Positions 5,502 through 64,000 of a stretch of DNA of 64,000 nt are shown piece by piece. Origin of the DNA: a virus; the IMG/VR virus record IMGVR_UViG_3300045421_000501, positions 1-64,000 of that record. One strand, given 5' to 3'. The notes under the pieces were generated by a model. It saw only the letters and a program-made list of their open reading frames with translations, was not told the origin of the DNA and made no database searches. Made by a program: the position numbers and the translations under genes. Every line of letters starts with the position of its first letter. Within the stretch, counting starts at the first letter, position 1.

Positions 5502-7181
5502 ATGGCTGCCGGAAAAAAATTATTTGGATTTGCTCTTGAGGATGTTGATGATAAAAAATCACAAAGTGTAGTCAGCCCTGTTCCTCCAAATGATGAGGAT
5601 GGGGTTGATTATTATTTGTCTTCTGGATTTTATGGTCAATACGTAGATTTAGAAGGAGTTTTTAGAACCGAATTTGATATTGTAAAAAAATATCGTGATA
5701 TGGCATTGCATCCGGAATGTGATACTGCAATTGAACATGTTGTAAATGAGGCTATTGTTTCTGACTTAAACGATAGTCCAATTCAAATTGATTTGGATAA
5801 TTTGAATGCAAGTGATAATTTAAAATCTGTAATTCGCAATGAATTCAAATATATTAAAGATTTGATGCAATTTGATAAAAAAGCACATGAAATTTTTAGA
5901 AATTGGTATGTTGATGGAAGAATTTATTATCATAAAGTAATTGATATGAAAAAACCTGATGAAGGTATTCAAGATATCAGGTATATTGACGCACTAAAAA
6001 TAAAATTAATGAGAATTCGTCCTCAGGATAAAAGTCATGGGCAAACATTGAAAATTGATTTGGGAACAGATAATCCTTTGATACATCAACATGCAGATGC
6101 AGAAGTTGAAGAATTTTATATTTATTATCCCAAAGGAATGGTTGAAAAATATGGATCCATAACCGGAAAGGGAATTAAAATTGCAAAAGATTCAATTACT
6201 TTTGTTTCTTCCGGACTTGTGGATCGAAATAAGTATCTTACGCTTTCATATTTACATAAAGCTATTAAATCCCTCAATCAACTTCGTATGATTGAAGATT
6301 CTCTTGTAATTTATAGACTTTCAAGAGCACCAGAAAAAAGAATTTTTTATATTGATGTTGGAAATTTGCCAAAAGTAAAAGCAGAACAATATCTTCGTGA
6401 TGTGATGATGAGATACCGCAATCGAATGCATTACGATGCTCATACTGGAGAAGTTAAAGATGATAAAAAATTTGTAAGTATGTTGGAAGATTTTTGGCTT
6501 CCTCGTCGGGAAGGTGGAAGAGGAACTGAAATTGGAACTCTTCCTGGAGGACAAAATTTAGGAGAACTTCAAGACATTGAATATTTTCAAAAAAAACTTT
6601 TCAGATCATTGAATATTCCCGATAGTAGACTTGCAAGTGAGAGTGGATTTAATCTTGGTCGTTCTTCAGAAATTCTTCGTGATGAATTAATGTTTTCAAA
6701 ATTTGTCGGAAGAATGAGAAAAAGATTTAGTAATATTTTCATTGATATGCTAAAAACTCAATTAATTTTGAAAAATATTGTCACCCCAGAAGACTGGGAA
6801 AAAATGGCAGAGCATATTCAATTTGATTATTTGTACGACAATCATTTTTCTGAATTAAAAGAAACCGAATTGATGAACGAAAGATTAAATTTAATGGTTG
6901 CAATTGAACCTTATATTGGAACTTATTACTCTAGAGATTATGTTAAACGTAAAGTCTTGAGAATGACAGAAGAAGAAATTGAAGAAATGACTCGAGAAAT
7001 GGAAGAAGAAAATGAAACAGGTGTTGGTGTTCCATTAGATGTTCAAAATGAAATCGCGGTTGGAAAAAATCAATCTAATAATGATTTGGGAGAAAATCCA
7101 CCAGAACCAGATTTGGAAAATAATAAAAATTCTGGAGCAACAGAATCTCCAAAAATAAATATTAAAAAAGCTAAGATATAA
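5502..7181 (+). CDS. 20: Portal vertex protein gp20
   Basis: Dodecameric portal that nucleates the prohead and docks the terminase. At 559 aa it is slightly longer than T4 gp20 (524 aa). Typical portal stretches are present: DTAIEHVVNEAIV (about residues 78-90), the KAIKSLNQLRMIEDSLVIYR helix, and APEKRIFYIDVGNLPK. The C-terminal 60 residues are acidic and Asn/Glu-rich and look disordered. The stop codon lies inside a TATAAATA late promoter for the next gene. Confidence 0.96.
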   Translation: MAAGKKLFGFALEDVDDKKSQSVVSPVPPNDEDGVDYYLSSGFYGQYVDLEGVFRTEFDIVKKYRDMALHPECDTAIEHVVNEAIVSDLNDSPIQIDLDNLNASDNLKSVIRNEFKYIKDLMQFDKKAHEIFRNWYVDGRIYYHKVIDMKKPDEGIQDIRYIDALKIKLMRIRPQDKSHGQTLKIDLGTDNPLIHQHADAEVEEFYIYYPKGMVEKYGSITGKGIKIAKDSITFVSSGLVDRNKYLTLSYLHKAIKSLNQLRMIEDSLVIYRLSRAPEKRIFYIDVGNLPKVKAEQYLRDVMMRYRNRMHYDAHTGEVKDDKKFVSMLEDFWLPRREGGRGTEIGTLPGGQNLGELQDIEYFQKKLFRSLNIPDSRLASESGFNLGRSSEILRDELMFSKFVGRMRKRFSNIFIDMLKTQLILKNIVTPEDWEKMAEHIQFDYLYDNHFSELKETELMNERLNLMVAIEPYIGTYYSRDYVKRKVLRMTEEEIEEMTREMEEENETGVGVPLDVQNEIAVGKNQSNNDLGENPPEPDLENNKNSGATESPKINIKKAKI

Positions 7182-24386: not shown

Positions 24387-24646
24387 CTAAAGTTTTAATG
24401 CTAAAAACAGGAATTGTTTTAATTTCTAAAATTGATGAGCTTTCGTCTGAACTTGGAGAACCAGATTGTATGTTGAAGCAACCTTTTGAAATGATTATGA
24501 ATTCAATGACAGAAGAATATAATCTAAGACCTTGGCCTAGTTTTAGTAGACAGCAGGAAATAATGATTCATTCAGATAGCATACTTACTATAGTTGATCC
24601 AGAAGCTGAATATCTTGAAAAGTATCAAAAATTGATTTCTGAATGA
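24383..24646 (+). CDS. Sm-like fold protein, copy 2
   Basis: 87 aa. KVLMLKTGIVLISKIDEL, CMLKQPFEMI, YNLRPWPSF and SILTIVDP follow the same order as in the protein at 13914 (KLVSGEEILSY, LLDSPIVL, YQFEPWM, IITVSEIT), so the two look like divergent paralogues. This size fits the structurally solved cyanophage-type Sm-like protein. It sits between the nucleotidyltransferase and gp43 with 4-bp overlaps, so it is probably expressed with the polymerase. RNA binding is inferred. Confidence 0.65.
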   Translation: MTKVLMLKTGIVLISKIDELSSELGEPDCMLKQPFEMIMNSMTEEYNLRPWPSFSRQQEIMIHSDSILTIVDPEAEYLEKYQKLISE

Positions 24647-25914
24647 GATATTATACTAATGTTCAAATGGTGGGCAATGAATTTCTTGTCCGTGGATTTG
24701 ATCAAAATAAATCTTTTATTTTGAGAGAAACTTGGCAACCCACACTATTTGTTCCAAGCAATAAAAAAACAAAATATAAAACTCTAGATGATAAATGCGT
24801 TCAAGATATTCAACCAGGATCAGTTCGAGATTGTAGGGAATTTATTCGAAAGCATGAAGGAGTAGACGGATTTCAAATATATGGAAATACTAGGTATATC
24901 TATCAATATATTTCAGAAAAATATCCAGAAGATCATATTGAATTTGATCTAAAAAAACTAAAATTAATAACTTTAGATATTGAGGTTGCCGCAGAAAATG
25001 GATTTCCAACTGTTGCAAATTGTGATGAAGAAGTCTTATGTGTTACGTTGCAAAATTTTTCAAATAAGAAAATACTAACTTTTGGACGAGGAAAATTTAA
25101 TAATAAAAATTCGGATATTCAGTATGTTGAATGTACTGATGAGTATGATTTACTAACTAAATTTAGTGCATATTGGGAAGAAAATCCTCCGGAAGTGGTT
25201 ACTGGATGGAACTGCGAATTATATGATATTCCATATCTTGCAACTAGAATTGGTAAAATTCTTGGAGAAAAAAGATTGAAAAAACTTTCACCATGGAGTT
25301 TGGTGACTAGTGAAGAAGTTTTTATTTCGGGAAGAGGTCATCTTACATATGATATTGGTGGAATTACCGTACTTGATTATTTGGACTTATATAAAAAATT
25401 TACATATAAAACTCAACAATCATATCGCCTTGATTATATTGCCGAAGTTGAATTAGGATCTAAAAAACTAGATCATAGTGAGCATGAAACCTTTCGAGAA
25501 TTTTATACAAATGATTGGCAAAAGTTTGTTGAATATAATATTCAAGACGTTAAACTTGTTGATGGATTGGAAGAAAAACTTAGGTTAATCGAACTCGCAG
25601 TTACGATGGCATTTGATGCGAAAGTAAATTTTAATGATGTATTTTATCAGGTTCGAATGTGGGATGCCATTATTTATAATTATTTAAAGAAAAGAAATAT
25701 TGTTATTCCACCAAAGAAAAATGTTGAAAAAAGTGAAAAATATGCTGGTGCTTATGTAAAGGAACCTATTCCTGGAATGTATGATTACGTGGTAAGTTTT
25801 GATTTGAATTCACTTTATCCACATTTGATTATGCAATACGCAATTTCCCCAGAAACACTTGTTGAAAAAGATGAACTCAATAAAAGAATTGCTGAACTTG
25901 AAAGTATGCTATAA
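24643..25914 (+). CDS. 43A: DNA polymerase gp43, N-terminal part (gp43A)
   Basis: 423 aa carrying the N-terminal and 3'-5' exonuclease domains of family B polymerase: Exo I LDIEVA (about 110), Exo II TGWNCELYDIPY, Exo III YNIQDVKLVDGL, then palm motif A FDLNSLYPHLIMQ. The frame ends soon after motif A with DELNKRIAELESML and TAA. The remaining motifs are on the ORF at 26011. Both parts are intact and well conserved, so a two-subunit polymerase is more likely than a dead gene. Overlaps the upstream gene by 4 bp. Confidence 0.93.
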   Translation: MRYYTNVQMVGNEFLVRGFDQNKSFILRETWQPTLFVPSNKKTKYKTLDDKCVQDIQPGSVRDCREFIRKHEGVDGFQIYGNTRYIYQYISEKYPEDHIEFDLKKLKLITLDIEVAAENGFPTVANCDEEVLCVTLQNFSNKKILTFGRGKFNNKNSDIQYVECTDEYDLLTKFSAYWEENPPEVVTGWNCELYDIPYLATRIGKILGEKRLKKLSPWSLVTSEEVFISGRGHLTYDIGGITVLDYLDLYKKFTYKTQQSYRLDYIAEVELGSKKLDHSEHETFREFYTNDWQKFVEYNIQDVKLVDGLEEKLRLIELAVTMAFDAKVNFNDVFYQVRMWDAIIYNYLKKRNIVIPPKKNVEKSEKYAGAYVKEPIPGMYDYVVSFDLNSLYPHLIMQYAISPETLVEKDELNKRIAELESML

Positions 25915-26010
25915 TATAAATAAGCGAGCACTATAATTGTAGTGAGATTTTGATAAAGCAAAGATTGAAAGAGTTTGGTATTAAAAAAATTAAAATTATA
26001 GAGAATTCAA
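25915..26010 (+). other. Gap splitting gp43, with possible homing-endonuclease scar
   Basis: The two polymerase parts are in the same frame, but this gap holds in-frame stops at 25921, 25951, 25954, 25966 and 25999, besides the TAA at 25912 that ends 43A. Another frame is open from 25920 to 26030 and encodes 36 residues including EHYNCSEILIKQRLKEFGIK, which reads like the helix-turn-helix tail of phage HNH endonucleases. A TATAATATAAATA stretch (25910-25922) and a small CACTA/TAGTG hairpin (25930-25944) lie at its start. Confidence 0.7.
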
Positions 26011-27357
26011 ATGTGGAAAGATGTTCGTAAAATGACTCGTGAGGAAATTGTAGAAGAACTTGAGGTACTTAAACAGGTAAGAGAACTTTCCGTAAAGGTG
26101 AATGTAGATAAACTTCTCAAACAAGAGTTGGATTTGGAACCTTTGCAAAAGGTAAATCTCACTATGACTGCGAATGGAGCACTCTATCATAGGGTGAAAG
26201 GTATGCTTCCAGAGATCATGGAAAAAATGTATAGTGATCGAGTCATTTTTAAAAAGAAAATGCTCACTGCTAAACAGCAGTATGAAAAGACTCCAACCAA
26301 AGAATTAGAAAAGGAAATTGCCAGATGTAATAATATTCAGATGGCAAAAAAAATTCAATTGAATTCTGCTTATGGTGCAATTGGAAATAATTATTTTAGA
26401 TATTATAAATTGGAAAATGCTGAAGCAATTACTCTTTCTGGGCAAGTTTCAATTCGTTGGATTGAAAATAAGATGAATCTTTATATTAATAAAATTTTAA
26501 AAACCGATAATAATGATTATGTTATTGCTGCAGATACTGATTCCATTTATATTAATATGGGTCCTTTGGTTGAAAGTGTATTCAAGGGAAGAGAGAAAAC
26601 TACTGAAGTCATTGTCAAATTCCTTGATAAGATCTGTGAAGTGGAACTTGAAAAATATATTGAAAGTTCTTACCAAGAATTGGCAGATTATGTAAATGCA
26701 TATGCTCAAAAAATGCAAATGAAACGTGAAAATATTGCTGAACGTGGAATTTGGACTGGGAAAAAAAGATATGCATTAAATGTATGGGACTCTGAAGGTG
26801 TTCGTTATACTCAACCCAAACTTAAGATTATGGGAATTGAAGCTGTAAAATCTTCAACACCAGCACCAGTTCGAAGTAAAATTAAAGAATCTTTGGCAAT
26901 TATTCTAACAAAGACGGAAGATGATTTGATTGATTTTATTGAGAATTCAAAAAAACAATTTTGGAAATTGAGTCCGAGTGATATTTCTTTTCCTAGAAGT
27001 TGTAACAATATTGAAAAATATAAGAATTCAAATTCAATTTACCAAAAAGGAACCCCGATGCATGTAAGGGGTGCATTACTTTATAATTATTATATAAAAA
27101 AATTCAATTTGAGTAATAAATATAATGTTATCAATAATGGCGAAAAAATTAAATATTGTTATCTTAAAAAACCAAATCCAATTAACGAAAATGTAATTTC
27201 TTTTATTTCTGAATTTCCAAAAGAACTCGGATTAGAAAAGTATATTGATTATAATATGCAATTTGAAAAAGCATTTTTAGAACCGATCACAAGCATCCTA
27301 GATAAAATTGGGTGGGCAGCAGAAAAAACTTCAACGCTTGAATCATTTTTTATATGA
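26011..27357 (+). CDS. 43B: DNA polymerase gp43, C-terminal part (gp43B)
   Basis: 448 aa with the rest of the polymerase domain: fingers motif B KKIQLNSAYGAIGNNYFRYY (about 115), catalytic motif C AADTDSIYINMG (about 170), and the thumb ending AAEKTSTLESFF, which provides the clamp-binding C-terminus. The first 30 residues (MWKDVRKMTREE and following) are a charged helix absent from motif-conserved regions, possibly part of an interface with gp43A. Only a weak AGAG precedes the ATG. Confidence 0.92.
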   Translation: MWKDVRKMTREEIVEELEVLKQVRELSVKVNVDKLLKQELDLEPLQKVNLTMTANGALYHRVKGMLPEIMEKMYSDRVIFKKKMLTAKQQYEKTPTKELEKEIARCNNIQMAKKIQLNSAYGAIGNNYFRYYKLENAEAITLSGQVSIRWIENKMNLYINKILKTDNNDYVIAADTDSIYINMGPLVESVFKGREKTTEVIVKFLDKICEVELEKYIESSYQELADYVNAYAQKMQMKRENIAERGIWTGKKRYALNVWDSEGVRYTQPKLKIMGIEAVKSSTPAPVRSKIKESLAIILTKTEDDLIDFIENSKKQFWKLSPSDISFPRSCNNIEKYKNSNSIYQKGTPMHVRGALLYNYYIKKFNLSNKYNVINNGEKIKYCYLKKPNPINENVISFISEFPKELGLEKYIDYNMQFEKAFLEPITSILDKIGWAAEKTSTLESFFI

Positions 27358-27389
27358 TTGTGCCATAATACTAATCTACAATACATTTT

Positions 27390-27554
27390 ATGGACGTTCC
27401 AATTAATAGTAAAGAACTCGAAACAATTATCAATGCGTTATCTTTGGGTGGCGATGCTTCTTTATATCACAAGTTAAAATTATTTAAGGAATTGATAGAG
27501 CAAGGATTACCTGCTAAAAAAATTCTAAGAGAACAATACGGGATTGAAGCATGA
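27390..27554 (+). CDS. Small conserved protein upstream of uvsX
   Basis: 54-aa ORF (MDVPINSKELETIINALSLG, then DASLYHKLKLFKEL, ending YGIEA). It overlaps uvsX in an ATGATG arrangement, which argues for real translation. Predicted helical and charged. Function unknown. Confidence 0.65.
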   Translation: MDVPINSKELETIINALSLGGDASLYHKLKLFKELIEQGLPAKKILREQYGIEA

Positions 27555-28597
27555 TGGACTTTATTAAAGATATAGTTAAAGAAATTGGAGATGAATATAC
27601 TTCGTTAGCATCTGAAATTGATGAATCTGAAGAATATATTGATACAGGTTCTTATATTTTCAATGCACTTTGCAGTGGAAGTATTTTTGGTGGAATTTCA
27701 AATAAAAGAATTACTGCAATAGCTGGAGAAAGTTCTACTGGAAAAACTTTTTTTAGTTTATCTGTAGTCAAGCATTTTCTGACTACAAATGAAGATGCTT
27801 ATGTATTATATTTTGATACAGAATCTGCAATTACTAAAAAATTACTATCCGAAAAAGGAATTCCATTGGATCGAATAGTAGTTATAAATGTTGTTACCGT
27901 AGAAGATTTTCGTGCAAAAACACTGAAAGCCGTTGATATTTATTTGAAGAAAAAAGAATCTGATAGAAAACCTTGTTTATTTGTATTGGATTCTTTGGGA
28001 ATGCTCTCTACAAATAAAGAAATTGAAGATACACTAGCGGAAAAGACAACAAGAGACATGACTAAAGCATCTTTGATCAAGGGTGCTTTTAGAATGCTTA
28101 CTTTGAAACTTGGTCAAGCAAAAATTCCAATGATAGTAACTAATCATGTTTATCAAGAAGTTGGTGCATATGTTCCGACAAAAACCATGGGAGGTGGTTC
28201 TGGTCTCAAGTATGCTGCCAGTACTATTATTAGTCTCTCAAAAAGTAAGGAAAAGGAGGGAACAGAAGTTATCGGAAACATTATCAAGGCTAAGACTGAT
28301 AAATCGCGTCTAACTAAAGAACAAAAATCTGTTCAAATTCGTTTATTTTATGATGAAAGAGGTCTTGATCGATATTATGGATTGATTGAAATTGCCGAAA
28401 AGTATAATATTTTTAAAAAAATAGGAACTCGCTATGATGTAGATGGTACAATGGTATTTGAAAAATCAATCTACAAAAATCCCGAAAAATATTTCACTGA
28501 AGATATTTTGAATAAAATTGACGAATTTGCAAAATTGGAGTTTGGTTATGGAAGAAAAGATACCACTGACAGTTCTGAGAAATCTTCTGACGAATGA
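27551..28597 (+). CDS. uvsX: RecA-like recombinase UvsX
   Basis: Strand-exchange protein of T4-type recombination. Walker A GESSTGKT (59-66), Walker B PCLFVLDSLGML, an MSD-like DNA-binding loop with TNHVYQEVG and the GGGSGLKYAAS block. 348 aa against 391 in T4; cyanophage forms are shorter. The tail after about residue 330 is Asp/Ser/Lys-rich. gp41 starts inside its last 50 bp. Confidence 0.95.
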   Translation: MMDFIKDIVKEIGDEYTSLASEIDESEEYIDTGSYIFNALCSGSIFGGISNKRITAIAGESSTGKTFFSLSVVKHFLTTNEDAYVLYFDTESAITKKLLSEKGIPLDRIVVINVVTVEDFRAKTLKAVDIYLKKKESDRKPCLFVLDSLGMLSTNKEIEDTLAEKTTRDMTKASLIKGAFRMLTLKLGQAKIPMIVTNHVYQEVGAYVPTKTMGGGSGLKYAASTIISLSKSKEKEGTEVIGNIIKAKTDKSRLTKEQKSVQIRLFYDERGLDRYYGLIEIAEKYNIFKKIGTRYDVDGTMVFEKSIYKNPEKYFTEDILNKIDEFAKLEFGYGRKDTTDSSEKSSDE

Positions 28598-29924
28598 AAA
28601 ATATGCAAGAAAGGTAATTCCCTTCTTAGAACCAACATATTTTGAGGATCGTTCCTACAAAATTATATTTGAAGAAATTACATCATTTATTGTTGCATAT
28701 GAACAACTTCCTTCTAAAGAAGTTTTATATATTGAAACTGAAAAAAGAAAAGATATTAGTGAAAATGAATATAAAGAAATCAATAATCTAATTAAAAATT
28801 TAGATGAAAAGGATGTTGACTATGATTGGTTAGTAGATACTACCGAAGGTTGGTGTAAAGAACGTGCCATATATTTGGCATTGATGCAAAGCATTAAGAT
28901 TGCAGATGGGCAGGATGAAAAGAAAAGTCCAGATGCAATTCCAAAAATTTTATCGGATGCTTTGAGTGTTAGTTTTGATAGTCATATTGGACATGATTAT
29001 ATTGATGATTTCGAAAAGAGATATGACTTTTATCATCAGAAAGAAACTAAAATTTCTTTTGATCTGGAATACTTTAATAAAATCACTTCTGGTGGAATTT
29101 CAAATAAAACTTTGAATATTGCACTTGCTGGTACTGGAGTTGGAAAATCTTTATTCATGTGCCATTTTGCATCCAGCATTTTATTATCTGGTAAAAATGT
29201 TTTGTATATTACCTTGGAAATGTCTGAGGAAAAAATTGCTGAACGTATTGATGCAAATCTTTTGAATGTAAATATACGAGAAATTGTAGATCTTCCAAAA
29301 CCAATTTTTCAAAGAAAAATTGATTCTTTGATTGCAAAGACTCAAGGTAAACTAATTATTAAAGAATATCCAACTGCATCTGCACATGTGGGACATTTTA
29401 GAGGACTTCTAAATGAACTCAATCTTAAAAAATCATTTCGACCTGATATTATTTTCATTGACTACCTTAATATTTGTTCTTCCAGCAGATATCGGAGCAC
29501 TGTCAATGTCAATTCATATTCATATATTAAGGCAATTGCAGAAGAATTGCGAGGATTGGCTGTTGAATTCGATGTTCCAATTTTTTCTGCTACTCAGACT
29601 ACTCGTTCAGGTTTTGGCAACTCTGATCCTAATCTTACTGATACTTCTGAATCCTTTGGTCTCCCTGCTACTGCTGATCTTATGTTTGCCCTTATTAGCA
29701 CAGAAGAGCTAGAACAACTTGGGCAGATTATGGTAAAGCAACTGAAAAATAGATATAATGATCCAACTGTAAATAAAAGATTTGTAGTAGGAATTGATAG
29801 AGCAAAAATGAGACTTTATGATTGTGAACAAACTGCTCAGAATGATATTCTTGACAAAGGTGATGAAGAGGAGTATAATTATATCGAAGACAAAAAATTA
29901 AAATACCAAGGATTTAAATTCTAA
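28548..29924 (+). CDS. 41: Replicative DNA helicase gp41
   Basis: DnaB-family hexameric helicase. I choose ATG 28548 (MEEKIPLTVLRNLL) with TTGGAG 7 bp upstream, inside uvsX; an earlier in-frame start adds 10 residues. Walker A GTGVGKS is at 195-201; Walker B IIFIDYLNIC and the DnaB-type SATQTTRSG follow. 458 aa against 475 in T4. Confidence 0.94.
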   Translation: MEEKIPLTVLRNLLTNEKYARKVIPFLEPTYFEDRSYKIIFEEITSFIVAYEQLPSKEVLYIETEKRKDISENEYKEINNLIKNLDEKDVDYDWLVDTTEGWCKERAIYLALMQSIKIADGQDEKKSPDAIPKILSDALSVSFDSHIGHDYIDDFEKRYDFYHQKETKISFDLEYFNKITSGGISNKTLNIALAGTGVGKSLFMCHFASSILLSGKNVLYITLEMSEEKIAERIDANLLNVNIREIVDLPKPIFQRKIDSLIAKTQGKLIIKEYPTASAHVGHFRGLLNELNLKKSFRPDIIFIDYLNICSSSRYRSTVNVNSYSYIKAIAEELRGLAVEFDVPIFSATQTTRSGFGNSDPNLTDTSESFGLPATADLMFALISTEELEQLGQIMVKQLKNRYNDPTVNKRFVVGIDRAKMRLYDCEQTAQNDILDKGDEEEYNYIEDKKLKYQGFKF

Positions 29925-30326
29925 ATGTCACACTTTGAACTTTACAAAACTTTTGTGGATGAAGTCACTAGTAGTTCATCCAAGGATCATGTTTCATTTA
30001 CTCAACGATTAAATGGACTTTATTCTCAAGGATGCCCAATTGAACGATTGCTTACAGCATCTGTAGGAATGAGTGCAGAATCTGGAGAATTTATGGAAAT
30101 TGTTAAAAAAATTATTTTTCAAGGAAAACCTTGGGAAGAATCAAATATTGAACATTTAAAAATTGAACTTGGTGATATTCTTTGGTATGTTGCTCAGGCA
30201 TGTATTTCATTAGATATTACTATGGAGGAACTTTTGGATATGAATATTAAAAAGTTATCAAAAAGATATCCAGATGGAGCTTTCGATTCTTATTATTCTG
30301 AAAATAGAAGAGCAGACGATCTATAA
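29925..30326 (+). CDS. mazG: MazG nucleotide pyrophosphohydrolase
   Basis: 133-aa NTP pyrophosphatase found in nearly all T4-like cyanophages. It has been proposed to lower host ppGpp or to clear non-canonical nucleotides. The EExxE-type metal site is visible as AESGEFMEIVKK with the partner ELGDILWYVAQA. It begins right after the gp41 stop, and a terminator follows. Confidence 0.92.
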   Translation: MSHFELYKTFVDEVTSSSSKDHVSFTQRLNGLYSQGCPIERLLTASVGMSAESGEFMEIVKKIIFQGKPWEESNIEHLKIELGDILWYVAQACISLDITMEELLDMNIKKLSKRYPDGAFDSYYSENRRADDL

Positions 30327-30333
30327 AATAAAT

Positions 30334-30355
30334 ACCTCCATAAGGAGGTTTTTTT
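30334..30355 (+). terminator. Terminator whose 3' arm is the next gene's ribosome-binding site
   Basis: 6-bp stem ACCTCC/GGAGGT with loop ATAA and seven T. The 3' arm contains AAGGAGG (30342-30348), 7 bp before the ATG at 30356, so the same bases act as terminator arm and Shine-Dalgarno sequence. Confidence 0.82.
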
Positions 30356-31168
30356 ATGGCAATCGATAAGGGAAAGCAATTTGAATATGCTATGATGAAA
30401 GTAGCATATTCTAGGATTATTGATCCATCTTTAGATGAACTAAATCAACTTAAAAAATTGGAGATTCAAGCAATTGAAAACGAAGTTCAAGTTGCTGCAA
30501 ATAGAATGCTTGATAGCATTAAACCAAGCAATCCAGAACCTTTTTATAAATCTTTTAGGCAACTTGGTGGATCTAGTCCCGAACCCAAAACCGATGTTTC
30601 TTTTGTAAAAAATGGAATGAAATATAAGTGTTCTATGAAATGGGGAGATTCATATCAATTGTCCAGCGCAGGAATACAGGGGACAATAAATGTATTGAAT
30701 AATGTATTATTAAAAGTTGCTATGGCTAATTCAATGAATCCAAATTCAATAATTCAAATTGCACAAGTTTTAGATGAATTATCTGAGACTTTGGGAAGTG
30801 GACCAAAAAAACAAACACAACCAGTAATGAAAGCAATCTTAGATCAGGCAAAACGTTCTGGTGGATTGAATGATAAATTGCAAAATATTCTTGGTTCTAG
30901 AAGAAATCCAGAATCTGATAAATTATTTTTAACATTTAAGCGAGAAGTTGTCAGAGAATCTTTGACTGGGGAAATGCTTTTTGGGGCACATAGTGATAAG
31001 GCAGCAAATTATGTTTTAACTGATAGAGAACTAAAACCAATCAATAATGAATTAGTGAATCAAATTGCAGATAAAACATATATTGATATTCGTTTGAAGG
31101 GTAGAGGAAAAGATGCTTCCGGAGTTAGATTGAATGAAGCTGTTGTTCGAATCGAACCAATAACATGA
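30356..31168 (+). CDS. Cyanophage protein of unknown function, possible nuclease-like fold
   Basis: 270 aa with a very strong AAGGAGG ribosome-binding site. The N-terminal 60 residues are helical. Then comes GGSSPEPKTDVSFVKNG with YKCSMKWGDSYQLSSAG: a D...x-S/C-x-K arrangement that weakly recalls PD-(D/E)XK nucleases, but a firm catalytic set cannot be assigned. The C-terminus (SGVRLNEAVVRIEP) is beta. No TM segment or signal. It overlaps the next ORF in ATGA. Confidence 0.7.
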   Translation: MAIDKGKQFEYAMMKVAYSRIIDPSLDELNQLKKLEIQAIENEVQVAANRMLDSIKPSNPEPFYKSFRQLGGSSPEPKTDVSFVKNGMKYKCSMKWGDSYQLSSAGIQGTINVLNNVLLKVAMANSMNPNSIIQIAQVLDELSETLGSGPKKQTQPVMKAILDQAKRSGGLNDKLQNILGSRRNPESDKLFLTFKREVVRESLTGEMLFGAHSDKAANYVLTDRELKPINNELVNQIADKTYIDIRLKGRGKDASGVRLNEAVVRIEPIT

Positions 31169-44770: not shown

Positions 44771-44844
44771 GTCTCAGTAACTCAGTGGACAAGAGTATCC
44801 GCCTTCTAAGCGGTTAGCCGTTGGTTCGAATCCAACCTGAGACG
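44771..44844 (+). tRNA. tRNA-Arg (UCU)
   Basis: Acceptor arms GTCTCAG (44771-44777) and CTGAGAC (44837-44843) pair perfectly; anticodon loop CTTCTAA with TCT at 44805-44807; TTCGAAT T-loop. The anticodon stem has only four clean pairs plus one T-T mismatch. CCA is not encoded. Reads AGA/AGG codons, common in this AT-rich genome. Confidence 0.9.
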
Positions 44845-44846
44845 TT

Positions 44847-44920
44847 CGGGCATTAGCGCAGTTTGGTAGCGCGTCCCGTTTGGGGCGGGAAGGTCAAAGG
44901 TTCAAATCCTTTATGCCCGA
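44847..44920 (+). tRNA. tRNA-Pro (UGG)
   Basis: Acceptor CGGGCAT/ATGCCCG; anticodon stem TCCCG/CGGGA with loop TTTGGGG, anticodon TGG at 44881-44883; T arm AAAGG TTCAAAT CCTTT. Only two bases separate it from tRNA-Arg. Confidence 0.95.
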
Positions 44921-44923
44921 CTT

Positions 44924-44996
44924 GGAACCATAGCTTAGTTGGTAGAGCATTCGACTGATAATCGAAAGGTCATTGGTTCAAATCCAATTGGTTTCA
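44924..44996 (+). tRNA. tRNA-Ile (GAU)
   Basis: Acceptor GGAACCA/TGGTTTC (one G-T); anticodon stem TTCGA/TCGAA, loop CTGATAA, anticodon GAT at 44957-44959; T arm ATTGG/CCAAT. Confidence 0.95.
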
Positions 44997-45005
44997 TCCT
45001 TTTTC

Positions 45006-45076
45006 GGGGAATTAGTTTAGTGGTAAAACAGATGCTTTGCAAGCATCAATCACCAGTTCGACTCTGGTATTCTCCA
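45006..45076 (+). tRNA. tRNA-Ala (UGC)
   Basis: Acceptor GGGGAAT/ATTCTCC; anticodon stem GATGC/GCATC, loop TTTGCAA, anticodon TGC at 45038-45040; T arm ACCAG/CTGGT. Confidence 0.95.
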
Positions 45077-45101
45077 TTGCTCATATAAATATTTTGAGCA
45101 A
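45077..45101 (+). other. Hairpin between tRNAs with a late-promoter core in its loop
   Basis: TTGCTCA/TGAGCAA stem (7 bp) directly after tRNA-Ala, with TATAAATA (45084-45091) forming most of the loop. It may be an RNA processing signal or a late promoter for the downstream tRNAs. Confidence 0.5.
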
Positions 45102-45141
45102 GTTTGTACATAAAATTGAAGTAGCAACTTCATTATTATAT

Positions 45142-45213
45142 TCCCTTGTAGCTCAGCGGTAGAGTCGTCGGCTGTTAACCGATTTGTCGCAAGTTCGAAT
45201 CTTGCCGGGGGAG
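45142..45213 (+). tRNA. tRNA-Asn (GUU)
   Basis: Acceptor TCCCTTG/CGGGGGA (two G-T); anticodon stem GTCGG/CCGAT, loop CTGTTAA, anticodon GTT at 45174-45176; T arm GCAAG/CTTGC. Confidence 0.94.
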
Positions 45214-45215
45214 TT

Positions 45216-45286
45216 GCCCTATAAGCATTGTGGTGATGCAGCAGTTTTGTAAACTGCAGAGGATGGTTCAATTCCGTCATGGGGCT
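45216..45286 (+). tRNA. tRNA-Thr (UGU)
   Basis: Acceptor GCCCTAT/ATGGGGC; anticodon stem GCAGT/ACTGC, loop TTTGTAA, anticodon TGT at 45248-45250. The T stem is weaker. Its final base is the first base of the next promoter's -35 box. Confidence 0.92.
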
Positions 45287-45314
45287 TGACAAAACAAATA
45301 ATACGTTTTATAAT
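45286..45314 (+). promoter_or_regulatory. Perfect-consensus sigma-70 promoter for the L,D-transpeptidase gene
   Basis: TTGACA (45286-45291), 17-bp spacer, TATAAT (45309-45314). It shares a base with tRNA-Thr. Predicted start near 45321. Confidence 0.87.
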
Positions 45315-45337
45315 TTGTTTATCCGTGTGAAGGAATG

Positions 45338-45706
45338 ATGCTTGATACAATATTGACAATCGTGATAAGTCTTTCTCAACAGAAACTTTATGCTCATACT
45401 AGTGATGGAAATATTGTATCTTTTCCAGTTTCAACTGGAAAGAAATCTACACCGACTCCTATTACTGAAGATAAAATTTCGATAAAACGTAAAGTTACTG
45501 ATTTTTATGGACCGGGATATTACATTAAGGATGTTCCTTATGTGATGTGTTTGGATAAGTATCCTTCACACTGTATTCATCCAAATCTTTCTAGCAGACC
45601 TTTGGGACATCCTTATTCTGGTGGATGTATTCGTATGAATGAAAAAGATGTTCAATGGGTTTTTGAAAGAACACCATTGAATACTCCAGTTAAAATTATA
45701 TCTTAA
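45338..45706 (+). CDS. L,D-transpeptidase (YkuD) domain protein
   Basis: 122 aa, almost only the catalytic domain. QQKLYAHTSDGNIVSFPVST is the usual YkuD start; HPNLSSRPLGHPYSGGCIRM holds the catalytic His and the S-G-G-C-I-R core with nucleophile Cys 97. Starts at 45335 and 45338 are both possible behind GAAGGA. The first 14 residues are mildly hydrophobic but there is no clear signal peptide. Such enzymes cross-link peptidoglycan or attach proteins to it; in a phage it may modify the wall during infection or virion entry. Its own perfect promoter suggests early expression. Confidence 0.85.
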   Translation: MLDTILTIVISLSQQKLYAHTSDGNIVSFPVSTGKKSTPTPITEDKISIKRKVTDFYGPGYYIKDVPYVMCLDKYPSHCIHPNLSSRPLGHPYSGGCIRMNEKDVQWVFERTPLNTPVKIIS

Positions 45707-45820
45707 TAAATATAAGTAAATATGATATTTTAGACTGTTCTAATTTTCTAGATGAAATAAAAATATGTAAAGAAACAGTTAGAGAATATTTTAGAAAAAA
45801 AAGAATAATTTTTTTATTTT
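45707..45820 (+). other. AT-rich spacer with a coding-like remnant
   Basis: No gene with a start is seen. One frame reads YDILDCSNFLDEIKICKETV followed by REYFRKKRIIFLF without a start codon and runs into tRNA-Gly, so it may be the remains of a gene displaced by tRNA insertion. Low certainty. Confidence 0.3.
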
Positions 45821-45892
45821 GCGGAATTAGTTCAGTGGTAGAACGCCATCCTTCCAAGTTGGATGTCACCGGTTCGAATCCGGTATTCCGCT
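45821..45892 (+). tRNA. tRNA-Gly (UCC)
   Basis: Acceptor GCGGAAT/ATTCCGC; loop CTTCCAA, anticodon TCC at 45853-45855; T arm ACCGG/CCGGT. The standard 7-nt-loop anticodon stem CCATC/GTTGG contains a T-T mismatch; an alternative CATCC/GGATG pairing gives a 9-nt loop. Confidence 0.88.
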
Positions 45893-45895
45893 TAT

Positions 45896-45975
45896 GCCCA
45901 AGTGGTGAAACTGGTATACACGCTTGACTTAGGATCAAGTGCTTCGGCGTGGAGGTTCGAGTCCTCTCTTGGGCA
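45896..45975 (+). tRNA. tRNA-Leu (UAG)
   Basis: Acceptor GCCCAAG/CTTGGGC; anticodon stem CTTGA/TCAAG, loop CTTAGGA, anticodon TAG at 45930-45932; a long variable arm (GTGCTTCGGCG region) as expected for class II tRNA. Confidence 0.94.
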
Positions 45976-46010
45976 TGTATAAAAACCATATATAAAAATA
46001 AATATCTGCA

Positions 46011-46598
46011 ATGAAAGAACTTTGTAAAAATTTATATACATGTCACTTAGGATTCGATTGGTGTACACCAGAAGAACTTTCAATTATTGAAAATAAACTT
46101 ATAATTGGACATCTATTTAGAAAAAAATATTATAATACACGTCAATATTCCTACCCCAATATTTTTGTAAATTCACGCATTGAACATCTAATTAAAATAA
46201 TAAAAACTAAAATATTTGAATGTTTTCCAAAAGTTATTTTGGAAAATGAAGAACCAAATAAATTTTTTTACATATCAAATTTAGATTGGGGAAAATGTGT
46301 GTTGCATCATCATTTAAATATTCCTAATCATTTGCGTAGTGTTGTTTGCGATCTGTCTAAATATGAGAAAGGAATAACCACAGTTTTTTATTTAAAAAAG
46401 CAAATAATAAATCAATACGATGGGGCATTTGCTTATCTATTGAATGATAGATGCTATATTCATCAAGGAATTGCTGGGGACTTATTAGTTTTGCCTTCGA
46501 ATGCATATCATGCACCATTATTAACTAAATCAAAGGAATATAGAATATCTTTGAATATTAATTTTAAAACTGTAAATAATATAAATGATTTTACATGA
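46011..46598 (+). CDS. Putative oxygenase-like beta-helix protein, function uncertain
   Basis: 195 aa. The second half reads like a double-stranded beta helix: KCVLHHHLNIPNHLRSVVCD, TTVFYLKKQ, then GDLLVLPSNAYHAPLL and YRISLNINF, where the His-rich start, late His and Arg could be the iron and 2OG ligands. Compare the clearer oxygenases at 20779 and 57324. The first 80 residues are Lys/Tyr-rich and unrecognised. Ends in a 4-bp overlap. Confidence 0.5.
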   Translation: MKELCKNLYTCHLGFDWCTPEELSIIENKLIIGHLFRKKYYNTRQYSYPNIFVNSRIEHLIKIIKTKIFECFPKVILENEEPNKFFYISNLDWGKCVLHHHLNIPNHLRSVVCDLSKYEKGITTVFYLKKQIINQYDGAFAYLLNDRCYIHQGIAGDLLVLPSNAYHAPLLTKSKEYRISLNINFKTVNNINDFT

Positions 46599-46789
46599 AA
46601 AAAACCAAATTTCAAAAATTAATTCAAAAACCATTAAGATTTCATCATCAAGATATTCACGAAGAAATTGATAACATAAAGGTACTATTATATGAACTTA
46701 ACAATCAGATGCAAGGTTTGCAATACAGAATTGACCAGCTCCTCCAAAAAACAGATTTGTGGATGCCAGAATATGATGACGTTGAATGA
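46595..46789 (+). CDS. Small coiled-coil protein
   Basis: 64 aa in ATGA overlap with the upstream gene. Basic start (MKKTKFQKLIQKPLRF), then a coiled-coil heptad stretch EIDNIKVLLYELNNQMQGLQ and an acidic end. Its 3' half overlaps the zinc-ribbon ORF by 98 bp in another frame. Function unknown. Confidence 0.5.
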   Translation: MKKTKFQKLIQKPLRFHHQDIHEEIDNIKVLLYELNNQMQGLQYRIDQLLQKTDLWMPEYDDVE

Positions 46790-46940
46790 TAATAAAATTT
46801 CTGCAGTTGACCTTTCTCAGGTGATTGTGGTAAAATCTATTAATTCATTTGAAGGAAAATATCTTTCGGATGAAGATCTTGAATATCAAGAATCTCGTAA
46901 GAAAAGAAAAGTTCGTAAAATGGAATTTGAAATTAAATAG
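46692..46940 (+). CDS. Small zinc-ribbon protein
   Basis: 82 aa. MNLTIRCKVCNTELTSSSKK followed by QICGCQNMMTL gives C-x2-C and C-x-C, a zinc-ribbon. The middle VDLSQVIVVKS is a beta strand and the C-terminus is basic (SRKKRKVRKMEFEIK). I recall near-identical small proteins in other cyanophages. The stop abuts tRNA-Ser, which starts at the next base. Confidence 0.7.
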   Translation: MNLTIRCKVCNTELTSSSKKQICGCQNMMTLNDNKISAVDLSQVIVVKSINSFEGKYLSDEDLEYQESRKKRKVRKMEFEIK

Positions 46941-47025
46941 GGAAAGGTGGCCGAGTGGTTTAAGGCAACAGTCTTGAAAACTGTCGAGGTGAAATCCTCC
47001 GTGAGTTCGAATCTCACTCTTTCCG
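46941..47025 (+). tRNA. tRNA-Ser (UGA)
   Basis: Acceptor GGAAAGG/TCTTTCC; anticodon stem ACAGT/ACTGT, loop CTTGAAA, anticodon TGA at 46975-46977; long variable arm; T arm GTGAG/CTCAC. Confidence 0.94.
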
Positions 47026-47579: not shown

Positions 47580-47702
47580 TTTATAAAAACTAGGTGGTGG
47601 AGTCAAATCGACCCATGTGCTCGTCGGATGCACAATAAATTATGCCGACTGGTGTGGATGAGGTAATCCCGCTTAGTTTCTTATTTCTAATTAAAAAATA
47701 AG
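47575..47702 (+). ncRNA. wcaG-type structured RNA upstream of the GDP-mannose epimerase
   Basis: Closing helix: AAACTAGG (47587-47594) pairs with CTTAGTTT (47672-47679). Inside it, TGTGC (47616-47620)/GCACA (47630-47634) forms a hairpin whose loop GTCGG (47623-47627) pairs with CCGAC (47645-47649), a pseudoknot. The same AAACTAGG also pairs perfectly with the upstream CCTAGTTT (47575-47582), so two states exclude each other. A second hairpin CTTATTT/AAATAAG ends at 47702. Position directly before a wcaG-like gene in a cyanophage fits the described wcaG RNA motif; I cannot check the covariance model. Confidence 0.72.
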
Positions 47703-47762
47703 TGGCGAGCATAATTGCAATTAATTTATTATAATATGTACAAATAATTTTTATTAAATAGT

Positions 47763-62006: not shown

Positions 62007-62156
62007 TGTTAAGAAATCAAAACATTTCTTACTCACTCCCGCTAACCGAGACCTATGGGAGTCTAAATACGTCCCTTATACCTATGCAGGAGGGTTGCAT
62101 AGGAATACTTGTACCGTTCAGCACCTCCTGGACTAATTTACTACCCATTTAATTAA
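62007..62156 (+). promoter_or_regulatory. Structured psbA leader RNA (PhotoRC-like position)
   Basis: The GGGA at 62057-62060 can pair upstream with CTCCC (62036-62040, as GGGAG) or downstream with TCCC (62072-62075). A strong hairpin CCTATGCA (62081-62088) / TGCATAGG (62096-62103) has loop GGAGGGT, whose GGAGG can pair with CCTCC at 62124-62128. PhotoRC RNAs are described upstream of psbA in marine cyanobacteria and cyanophages; location fits, consensus not checked. Confidence 0.65.
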
Positions 62157-62473
62157 ATGACTGCTACAATTGCTTTACAAAAACAATCTAATCCATGGAA
62201 TCAATTCTGCGATTGGATTACTTCTACCAATAACCGCCTTTATGTGGGTTGGTTTGGTACTCTGATGATTCCTACTCTTCTTGCAGCAACGATTTGTTTC
62301 ATCATCGCCTTCGTTGGCGCACCCCCGGTGGACATTGATGGTATTAGGGAACCAGTTGCTGGTTCTCTTATGTGGGGCAACAACATCATCTCTGGTGCTG
62401 TTGTTCCTTCTAGCAACGCAATCGGATTGCATCTATACAATATTTGGGATGCAGCAAGTCTTGATGAGTGGCT
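62157..62473 (+). CDS. psbA: Photosystem II D1 protein PsbA, exon 1
   Basis: Reaction-centre protein expressed by the phage to keep photosynthesis running. Exon 1 codes residues 1-105 and two bases of codon 106: [20 protein letters not shown] start, [51 protein letters not shown]. Translation without splicing would stop after WLYK at 62480-62482. Three residues near the exon end are unusual: Leu 93, Asn 95 and Asp 98, where D1 normally has Phe, Pro and Glu. Splice site derived from P1 pairing of the intron. Confidence 0.93.
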
Positions 62474-63290
62474 TTATAAATAATATTGGGTCACTTTAAA
62501 TCGGGTGAACTGCTGGAAAGCTAAGTTCTCTTATGAAACACAAACATCATCTTACTCCAAAATATCTTGGTGGGTCTGACGAACCACAAAATCTTGTAGA
62601 GGTTTCTCCAACACAACACGCTATGTTTCATTATTGCAACTGGCGTCTTTGGGAAAATAAAGAAGATATGATTGCTTGGAAAGCACTTGCAGGGTATTCT
62701 TCAAAAGAAGAAATAATCCAACAAGTTATTTCTCTTGCAGGTAAGAAGGGTGGTAAGGTTGCAAAAGAAAGCGGACAACTTCGTGCTGCTGCTCTTAAAC
62801 AACCTAAAAGTGTTAGGCAGAAAATTGGTAAAAACCTTATCAACTTTGCCTACAAAAATCCAAAAAATGCAACACAAGAAACTCTAACTAATAGAAAGTA
62901 TAAGAAAGTATTTCACATTTACGAAAAACTAACTGAACGGTCTATTGGTAAACATCTTGGAAATGTTGAGTTTAATCCAGAACAAGATAAAACACTTAAA
63001 ACTGTTTGTTCTATGATACTGGAAAAGTATGGGGTAAAAGTTTATCCTTCACATCTTAATAGTGTTGCTAACGGAAATAGACTTTTAACGAGTGGTATTT
63101 CTTGCAGTTGGGTTTTAGAGAATACGCCAATCAGCAGCCAAGCCACAGACGATACTTCTGTGGAAGGTTCAGAGACTAGTCGGTTCAACAAGCGTGTTGA
63201 GTAATACGACATTAGCGCCCGACACCTTATGAAGATAATAGGGTGAAGATATAGTCCAGTCCATATGGAAACATATGGTTCCCCCGACTG
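62474..63290 (+). mobile_element. Group I intron in psbA, 817 nt, with internal endonuclease gene
   Basis: Exon 1 ends AGTGGCT (62467-62473), which pairs over all 7 bases with GGTCACT at 62489-62495 (P1), with the required U-G wobble at the splice site. The intron ends in G (63290) after CCCCCGACTG. Joining 62473 to 63291 restores [24 protein letters not shown] at about 63246-63257 is the typical P7-region element of group I introns. The element carries an HNH gene at 62533-63204. Confidence 0.93.
62533..63204 (+). CDS. Intron-encoded HNH homing endonuclease
   Basis: 223 aa. The N-terminal MKHKHHLTPKYLGGSDEPQN with LVEV and TQHAMFHYCNW is an HNH motif (His 5/6, Asn 20, His 29, His 33). The middle is Lys/Gln-rich; the end SHLNSVANGNR followed by SGISCSWV resembles the DNA-binding modules of phage homing endonucleases. 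It probably cuts intronless psbA near the insertion site. Its 3' end overlaps the intron core. Cyanophage S-PM2 is known to carry a psbA intron with an associated endonuclease (F-CphI); whether this is its homologue I cannot tell. Confidence 0.85.
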   Translation: MKHKHHLTPKYLGGSDEPQNLVEVSPTQHAMFHYCNWRLWENKEDMIAWKALAGYSSKEEIIQQVISLAGKKGGKVAKESGQLRAAALKQPKSVRQKIGKNLINFAYKNPKNATQETLTNRKYKKVFHIYEKLTERSIGKHLGNVEFNPEQDKTLKTVCSMILEKYGVKVYPSHLNSVANGNRLLTSGISCSWVLENTPISSQATDDTSVEGSETSRFNKRVE

Positions 63291-64000
63291 CTATAATGGG
63301 GGTCCTTATCAACTCGTCGTCTTCCACTTTCTTATCGGCATCTTCTGCTATATGGGTCGTGAGTGGGAACTATCTTACCGACTGGGTATGAGACCCTGGA
63401 TTTGTGTTGCTTACTCTGCACCTGTTGCTGCTGCTAGTGCGGTATTCCTTGTTTATCCTTTCGGTCAGGGTTCCTTCTCAGACGGTATGCCCCTGGGCAT
63501 CTCCGGCACCTTCAATTACATGTTGGTGTTCCAGGCTGAGCACAACATTTTGATGCACCCCTTCCACATGCTTGGTGTGGCTGGTGTGTTCGGCGGCAGC
63601 CTGTTCTCCGCCATGCACGGTTCACTGGTTACCTCTTCCTTAGTGCGTGAAACCACCGAGAGCGAGAGCCAGAACTACGGCTACAAGTTCGGTCAAGAGG
63701 AAGAAACTTATAACATTGTTGCTGCTCACGGTTATTTTGGAAGACTTATTTTCCAATATGCATCATTCAACAACTCTCGTTCACTTCACTTCTTCCTTGC
63801 TGCTTGGCCTGTAGTTGGCATCTGGTTCACTGCTTTAGGTGTTTCTACAATGGCTTTTAATCTCAATGGACTGAATTTTAATCAGAGTATTCTGGATAAT
63901 CAGGGTCATGTTATTAAAACTTGGGCAGATATTTTAAATTCTGCTGGACTTGGGCTCGAAGTAATGCACGAAAGAAACGCACATAATTTTCCTTTGGATC
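63291..64000 (+). CDS. psbA: Photosystem II D1 protein PsbA, exon 2 (3' partial)
   Basis: Completes codon 106 and continues [20 protein letters not shown] to [12 protein letters not shown], where the window ends; about 17 residues are missing. Conserved ligands include His 118 (VFHFL), His 198 region ([10 protein letters not shown]), His 215 and His 272 regions. Residue 130 is Glu (MGREWEL), the form found in high-light D1. The first two thirds are GC-richer with C-ending codons, and the last third returns to phage-like AT-rich codons. Confidence 0.96.

Follow-up and report, generated by a model that had tools for sequence, protein, structure and literature searches.

We conclude that gp43, the DNA polymerase gene of a T4-like cyanophage, has been made into a two-subunit polymerase by a mobile homing-endonuclease cassette, and that the sequence studied here carries a decayed copy of that cassette; we put the probability of this reading at roughly 0.88. 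The sequence, hereafter the window, comprises 64,000 nucleotides (positions 1 to 64,000) of the 114-kb IMG/VR virus record IMGVR_UViG_3300045421_000501 (G000). The nearest sequenced relatives of the phage are the T4-like cyanophages P-TIM68, S-SCSM1, and S-CAM9, and the genome contains psbA, so the label "cyanophage" is sound.

The split polymerase gene and its relatives

In the window, gp43 is present as two intact open reading frames (ORFs) on the plus strand. Based on matches to Pfam (PF03104, E = 1.9e-19, plus PF00136) and PHROGs, gp43A (24643..25914; 423 amino acids [aa]) is the N-terminal half of a family-B polymerase, with the 3'-5' exonuclease and the start of the palm including motif A. 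Its translation contains DIE, GWNxxxYDIPYL, YNxxDV, and DLNSLYPHL. The C-terminal half, gp43B (26011..27357; 448 aa), has its own start codon and encodes motifs B and C, the fingers, and the thumb; LNSAYGAIGN, DTDSIY, and KKRY can be read directly in it, and it matches RB69 gp43 by sequence (E = 1.8e-67). The exonuclease and polymerase domains and motifs A, B, and C are thus all present, as in the T4-type family-B DNA polymerases. Against the 856 positions of phrog_262, gp43A covers 7 to 431 and gp43B covers 427 to 851, so that nothing conserved has been lost except at the cut itself. These results confirm a first-pass annotation made from the sequence, which had placed the break just after palm motif A and had noted that both halves lie in one frame, separated by a 96-bp gap with five in-frame stops beyond the gp43A terminator.

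With a protein search, and with a DNA pattern that targets the start of gp43B, we found the same cut in 81 IMG/VR records, which represent 50 distinct loci including the window. The gap holds a full-length endonuclease gene in 45 of the 50 (HNH in 36, GIY-YIG-like in 9), which supports the earlier proposal that the gap in the window is a homing-endonuclease scar. The other five are the window, L006 (171 bp, with an HNH remnant), L104 (108 bp, with an HNH remnant), and L138 and L142 (47 bp each). In all 50 loci, the end of gp43A is a short tail that would form a helix; DELNNRIAELEKML and DELNKRIAELESML are typical.

The two nucleases are unrelated as ORFs. The HNH ORF is ∼188 aa long, and its copy in L008 matches PF01844 (E = 5.6e-9; 36.4 bits against a cut-off of 21.4). 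The other ORF, of ∼175 aa, has a GIY-YIG-like N terminus (YVY..FYVGMGQGYR..H). Its C terminus has ∼50 residues in common with the N terminus of the HNH type, at ∼42% identity, and this region, a helix-turn-helix, is modeled as a confident three-helix fold (predicted local distance difference test [pLDDT] score, ∼80 to 91). A common binding domain, and with it a common target, would be the simplest reason that both nucleases occupy one site. Among phage records, the GIY-type nuclease had no match and the HNH type was matched only in its catalytic domain (38 to 57%). The ratio of nonsynonymous to synonymous substitution rates (dN/dS) is 0.11 for the endonuclease ORFs, indicating purifying selection, and their dS of 0.67 to 0.81 lies below that of gp43 (1.36 to 1.62). 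Several of the nuclease genes seem to have been damaged recently. The HNH gene of L010 reads HEVYHIIP instead of HEVDHIIP, with loss of the aspartate, and the 171-bp remnant of L006 has the same change; these may be steps of decay from an intact to a dead and then to a deleted gene.

Other length variation was also observed. Gaps of 773 to 1,092 bp, with extra sequence beyond the HNH gene, occur in L001, L103, L107, L110, L124, L126, L133, L139, and L149, and that of L001 contains a 54-aa ORF with CxxC pairs (MTYEEEYQPRNREKSKQAKYGMIWCAYCDRDMVGDIGKCSYCGRF..). Further polymerase insertions are indicated by a longer gp43B in L148 (1,482 bp, compared with the usual 1,341 bp) and in L104, L164, and L113 (1,383 bp), and by a longer gp43A in L286 (1,320 bp; usually 1,221 bp).

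The nuclease genes appear to carry their own control signals. The cyanophage late promoter is NATAAATA (PMC2984593), and (T)ATAAATA stands right after the gp43A stop or in a hairpin loop in 45/45 loci with a full-length nuclease gene, and also in the window. In GIY-type loci, TATAAATA is followed by a hairpin whose pairing covers the nuclease start codon; the HNH-type loci have the promoter motif within the loop of a hairpin. The motif alone is weak evidence, because the plus strand of the AT-rich window contains 12 copies against 6.5 expected; the evidence is its conservation at this spot.

Mobility of the cassette

The cassette has two arms that belong to the polymerase. The left arm is the tail helix of gp43A (25867..25911, plus strand; approximately residues 409 to 423, ending in DELNKRIAELESML), which is conserved in split loci, is predicted as a helix by the structure model, and is absent from unsplit gp43 genes with a short linker. 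Codons 1 to 63 of gp43B (26011..26199, plus strand) form the right arm, comprising the start MWKDVRKM, a head helix (residues 10 to 29), and a palm linker.

The clearest indication of movement comes from near-identical alleles that exist with and without the element. L099, which is split and carries a GIY-type gene, and L044, which is unsplit, are 98.8% identical over 2,059 bp on the left, ending 76 bp short of the gp43A stop, and 96.3% identical over 1,969 bp on the right, starting at approximately nucleotide 190 of gp43B. Between these flanks lie 839 bp in L099 and 143 bp in L044, and the 839 bp consist of the gp43A tail helix, the endonuclease gene, the gp43B head helix, and the linker. Across the nuclease gene and the gp43B head, the same cassette is 93 to 100% identical to its counterpart in L156, with only ∼40 to 80% identity in the gp43A sequence upstream. 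Flanks have thus been exchanged in L099/L044 and L099/L156, and also in L120/L283 (94.5% and 93.8%) and other pairs (L084 and L107/L361, ∼89 to 90%; one-sided mosaics L171/L223, 91.5% on the right, and L156/L386, 91% on the left), although part of the agreement in breakpoints among the less similar pairs arises because very different linker types force alignments to end there.

The right arm shows the same pattern across loci. In 41/41 loci, gp43B residues 30 to 63 resemble another split locus more than they resemble any short-linker unsplit gp43, with a mean excess of 0.37 in identity; over the rest of gp43A and gp43B the excess is 0.01 to 0.15, and many loci are nearer to unsplit genes. In a gp43B tree the split loci do not form one group, and the GIY label is scattered, with the 8 changes for 8 rows that shuffles also give. 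From these comparisons we read the split as a mobile trait and the L099 allele as a probable homing cassette with interface helices of its own. The cassette linker is most like the long helical linker of the unsplit gp43 of cultured phage S-CAM7 and its IMG/VR relatives, making a long-linker gp43 gene the likely place of origin. In one long-linker gp43 (L193, near position 3972), the reading frame is disrupted immediately after ISPET, also at this site, through either a frameshift or a sequencing error.

Alternatively, an intercistronic sequence may have split gp43 before any nuclease gene arrived, as has been proposed for Aeromonas phage 44RR, and the nuclease genes may have invaded the gap later, an order that has been considered possible for Aeromonas phage 25 (PMC2988022). 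The 47-bp gaps of L138 and L142, which have no endonuclease gene, would fit such a history, but both contain GTAGAATATCC, with which the HNH-type leader also begins, and so look like losses. Moreover, relative to L044, L099 gained the helices, the nuclease gene, and the split together. We therefore consider this order unlikely, though it is the strongest of the competing explanations.

Several observations weigh against the reading that a mobile cassette split the gene. The change between L044 and L099 is polarized as a gain of the cassette by nesting among unsplit relatives, and no near-isogenic unsplit partner was found for the window, its best gp43A match being the unsplit L199 at 78%. All split loci come from metagenomic contigs, and the gp43B head was found in none of the phages of the INPHARED collection. 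Although gp43B starts with MWKDVRKM or MWKDVRQM in all 50 loci, this conservation is partly by construction, as most loci were found through the DNA pattern for that start. For the GIY-type protein, the profile match is weak (PF22945, E = 3.4e-4; 21.1 bits against a cut-off of 27), comparison with PDB 9u75 gave only E = 0.12, and the model, built with nine close relatives, is poor outside the helix-turn-helix (mean pLDDT, 51).

A probable polymerase of two polypeptides

Across the split loci, median dN/dS is ∼0.12 for gp43A and ∼0.13 for gp43B. Each half has its own start, with an ATG for gp43B in every locus, mostly preceded by a GGAG-like sequence. Because both halves are constrained and separately started, two polypeptides are expected. 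We modeled the window gp43A, gap, and gp43B as one chain, with the stops replaced by glycine purely to form a linker. The model has an RB69-type polymerase fold (mean pLDDT, 87; 1ih7, E = 1e-64, TM = 0.81), with pLDDT values of ∼94 for the gp43A tail helix (residues 409 to 422), ∼96 for the gp43B head helix (residues 10 to 29), and <50 for the artificial linker. The tail helix may pack against the head helix, and gp43A and gp43B probably assemble into a working polymerase. There is a precedent in Aeromonas phage 25, whose split 43A and 43B purify together and have activity (PMC2988022).

A single product could also be restored if the halves were rejoined at the RNA or protein level; candidate routes are a group I intron, a split intein, and the kind of ribosome bypassing seen in T4 gene 60. 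The halves of the window do share a frame, and other phage genes, including psbA of the window genome, carry group I introns. However, the frame of gp43B relative to gp43A varies among relatives (0, 1, or 2), the separate gp43B start described above is found throughout, and the tails contain no intein sequence. A group I intron would not fit in the 96-bp gap, and a covariance search that finds the psbA intron gave no group I match in the gp43 gap of the window or in L008, L009, L099, and L120. None of these three routes is supported, and we regard rejoining as very improbable.

That gp43 is a pseudogene, or that the break is an error of sequencing or assembly, might be suspected from the metagenomic origin and the six stops of the read-through, but we reject it as hardly credible, given that both halves are intact with their catalytic motifs and under the constraint noted above, and that local misassembly is ruled out by a second IMG/VR contig (L132, 63.5 kb) identical to window positions 24480 to 31112 at 6,633/6,633 bases and by the 49 other distinct loci that are split alike.

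The decayed nuclease gene of the window

What remains in the gap of the window is the end of a GIY-YIG-type homing endonuclease gene (25920..26006, plus strand), consisting of the C-terminal helix-turn-helix in a frame that differs from that of gp43; the GIY-YIG catalytic domain is absent. The open frame there (25920 to 26030, 36 residues) reads ISEHYNCSEILIKQRLKEFGIKKIKIIENSNVERCS followed by a stop, the endonuclease's own stop having been lost. Over 29 residues, the remnant is 86% identical (E = 1.7e-14) to residues 146 to 174 of the intact GIY-YIG-type ORFs at the same site, and so is not a chance frame. Aligned at the DNA level with nine complete GIY genes, the window still has the leader TATAAATA (25915..25922, plus strand), the T4-type late-promoter motif kept in the 45 full-length loci and here left over from the lost gene, as well as the last ∼87 bp of the gene; relative to L009, ∼474 bp are absent. 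Also changed, besides the endonuclease stop, is a G of the GGAG-like sequence upstream of gp43B. The remnant is ∼95 to 96% identical to L009 in DNA, compared with ∼50 to 78% for most of the surrounding gp43, suggesting that either the loss or the arrival of the cassette was recent.

The first-pass annotation had recognized the 36-residue frame as the helix-turn-helix tail of an endonuclease, which is borne out, but had assigned it to the HNH type, which is not. An HNH source could be argued from the match of the remnant to the N-terminal helix-turn-helix of the HNH ORF (43%, E = 2e-5); the GIY-YIG-like ORF matches far better in protein and DNA, and TATAAATA right after the gp43A stop is the leader of the GIY type, so we reject the HNH origin as scarcely tenable. 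The comparison of the 36 residues with endonucleases that the annotation had proposed did find relatives, of the GIY-YIG-like type, and the gap is not normal polymerase sequence.

Comparison with known systems

The closest parallel is gp43 of Aeromonas phages 44RR2.8t and 25, a T4-type family-B polymerase likewise encoded by two adjacent cistrons (43A/43B), between which lies a short intercistronic untranslated sequence (IC-UTS) or a homing endonuclease gene, seg43(25) (PMC2988022). In 44RR (43A, 498 aa) the gene is cut within the fingers, ∼95 residues farther downstream, so the insertion site is not the same and the cyanophage split appears to be an independent event of the same kind. The palm linker cassette belongs to the cyanophage split only, the endonuclease gene differs, and no group I intron is involved in the cyanophage case. 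The likeness to Aeromonas that the annotation had suggested thus holds as to kind; instead of a single parallel event, the window presents a decayed copy among the many alleles of a mobile split that is widespread and lies elsewhere in gp43. A second split site, at the tip of the fingers and apparently at the same place as in 44RR, was seen in the related phages L301, L302, L381, and L413, where gp43A is ∼491 aa long and ends in ELKRRKVDLNTP or a similar sequence. The ORFs between those halves include a phrog_655 homing endonuclease in L301 and a 99-aa nuclease-like ORF in L302 and L413.

The nrdA/mobE system of Aeromonas phage Aeh1 also has a free-standing endonuclease gene, with late promoter and hairpin, that splits an essential gene into two cooperating polypeptides (PMC2988022). 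The host gene there is a different one, and the cyanophage case adds two interchangeable nucleases, many natural alleles, and evidence of transfer into unsplit genes. I-TevI and Aeh1 mobE are expressed late through the same promoter and hairpin design (PMC2988022), which resembles the TATAAATA and hairpin of the GIY-type relatives in that the hairpin lies over the start codon. I-TevI is intron-borne, unlike the free-standing cyanophage nuclease within a split gene, and the window retains the promoter motif only. Synechococcus phage S-CAM7 (Mazuvirus) has a long helical linker at the exact site (DDLNIMIHNAQNDPSYDQEKLEAMLQVRQLSGKIN), 64% identical to the right arm of the cassette, but its gp43 is continuous and has no endonuclease. 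In T4 relatives, according to the title of a reference listed in PMC2988022, SegH and Hef replace mobC and mobE, so that unrelated endonuclease genes swap at one site there as well. That site lies between genes, whereas the cyanophage site is inside a split essential gene and both nucleases have a related helix-turn-helix.

In the literature searched, we found no report of a palm-site split of cyanophage gp43. We file the endonuclease-split gene as a kind already known, and regard as new the site, the interchangeable nucleases, the evidence that the interface helices travel with the split, and the decayed allele present in the window.

Other elements in the genome

In psbA (window positions 62157 to 64000), a group I intron (Rfam Intron_gpI, 62925 to 63278, 58.7 bits) breaks the coding sequence after ..SLDEWLY. 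The ORF at 62533 to 63204 (MKHKHHLTPKYLGGSDEPQNLVEV..), which appears HNH-like by eye, lies inside the psbA intron. A second core gene of the window phage therefore hosts a mobile element. The window also encodes a cluster of nine tRNA genes (44771 to 47025), a wcaG RNA (47615 to 47716), and, upstream of psbA, a PhotoRC-II RNA (62023 to 62116).

Proposed mechanism and implications

We propose that a free-standing endonuclease gene with its own late promoter and hairpin entered gp43 after motif A and left two cistrons. The recipient lineage would have had a long helical linker, as in cultured phage S-CAM7. The nuclease would then cut gp43 genes that lack the cassette, and repair would copy the cassette in, leaving mosaics such as those described above. 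Because the copied tract would take along the gp43A tail helix and the gp43B head helix and linker, a recipient would obtain matched interface helices. The distribution of the HNH and GIY-YIG-like nucleases suggests that they have replaced each other at the site, presumably by recognizing a shared target through their related helix-turn-helix domains. In the window phage, most of the GIY-YIG-like gene (∼474 bp) is gone, and the late-promoter motif, the helix-turn-helix tail, and both polymerase cistrons are kept. Translated from separate starts, gp43A and gp43B would join non-covalently into an RB69-like polymerase, partly through the tail and head helices.

More broadly, and with less assurance than for the window itself, we lean toward viewing the cassette as a self-contained mobile gene splitter. 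Homing would turn a continuous polymerase into a two-subunit enzyme and bring the docking helices and linker with it, and unrelated catalytic families with related DNA-binding domains would alternate as its motor.

The Aeromonas case leaves open whether the endonuclease gene split the polymerase gene or invaded one that was already split (PMC2988022). Here, ∼50 naturally occurring alleles that cover every state (HNH, GIY-YIG-like, decayed, and gene lost), along with near-identical split and unsplit genes, make the order of splitting and invasion, and the way in which the pieces find each other, directly testable. The setting is a core replication gene of abundant aquatic phages, and both genome annotation and surveys that use gp43 as a marker will encounter "half" polymerases that probably work.

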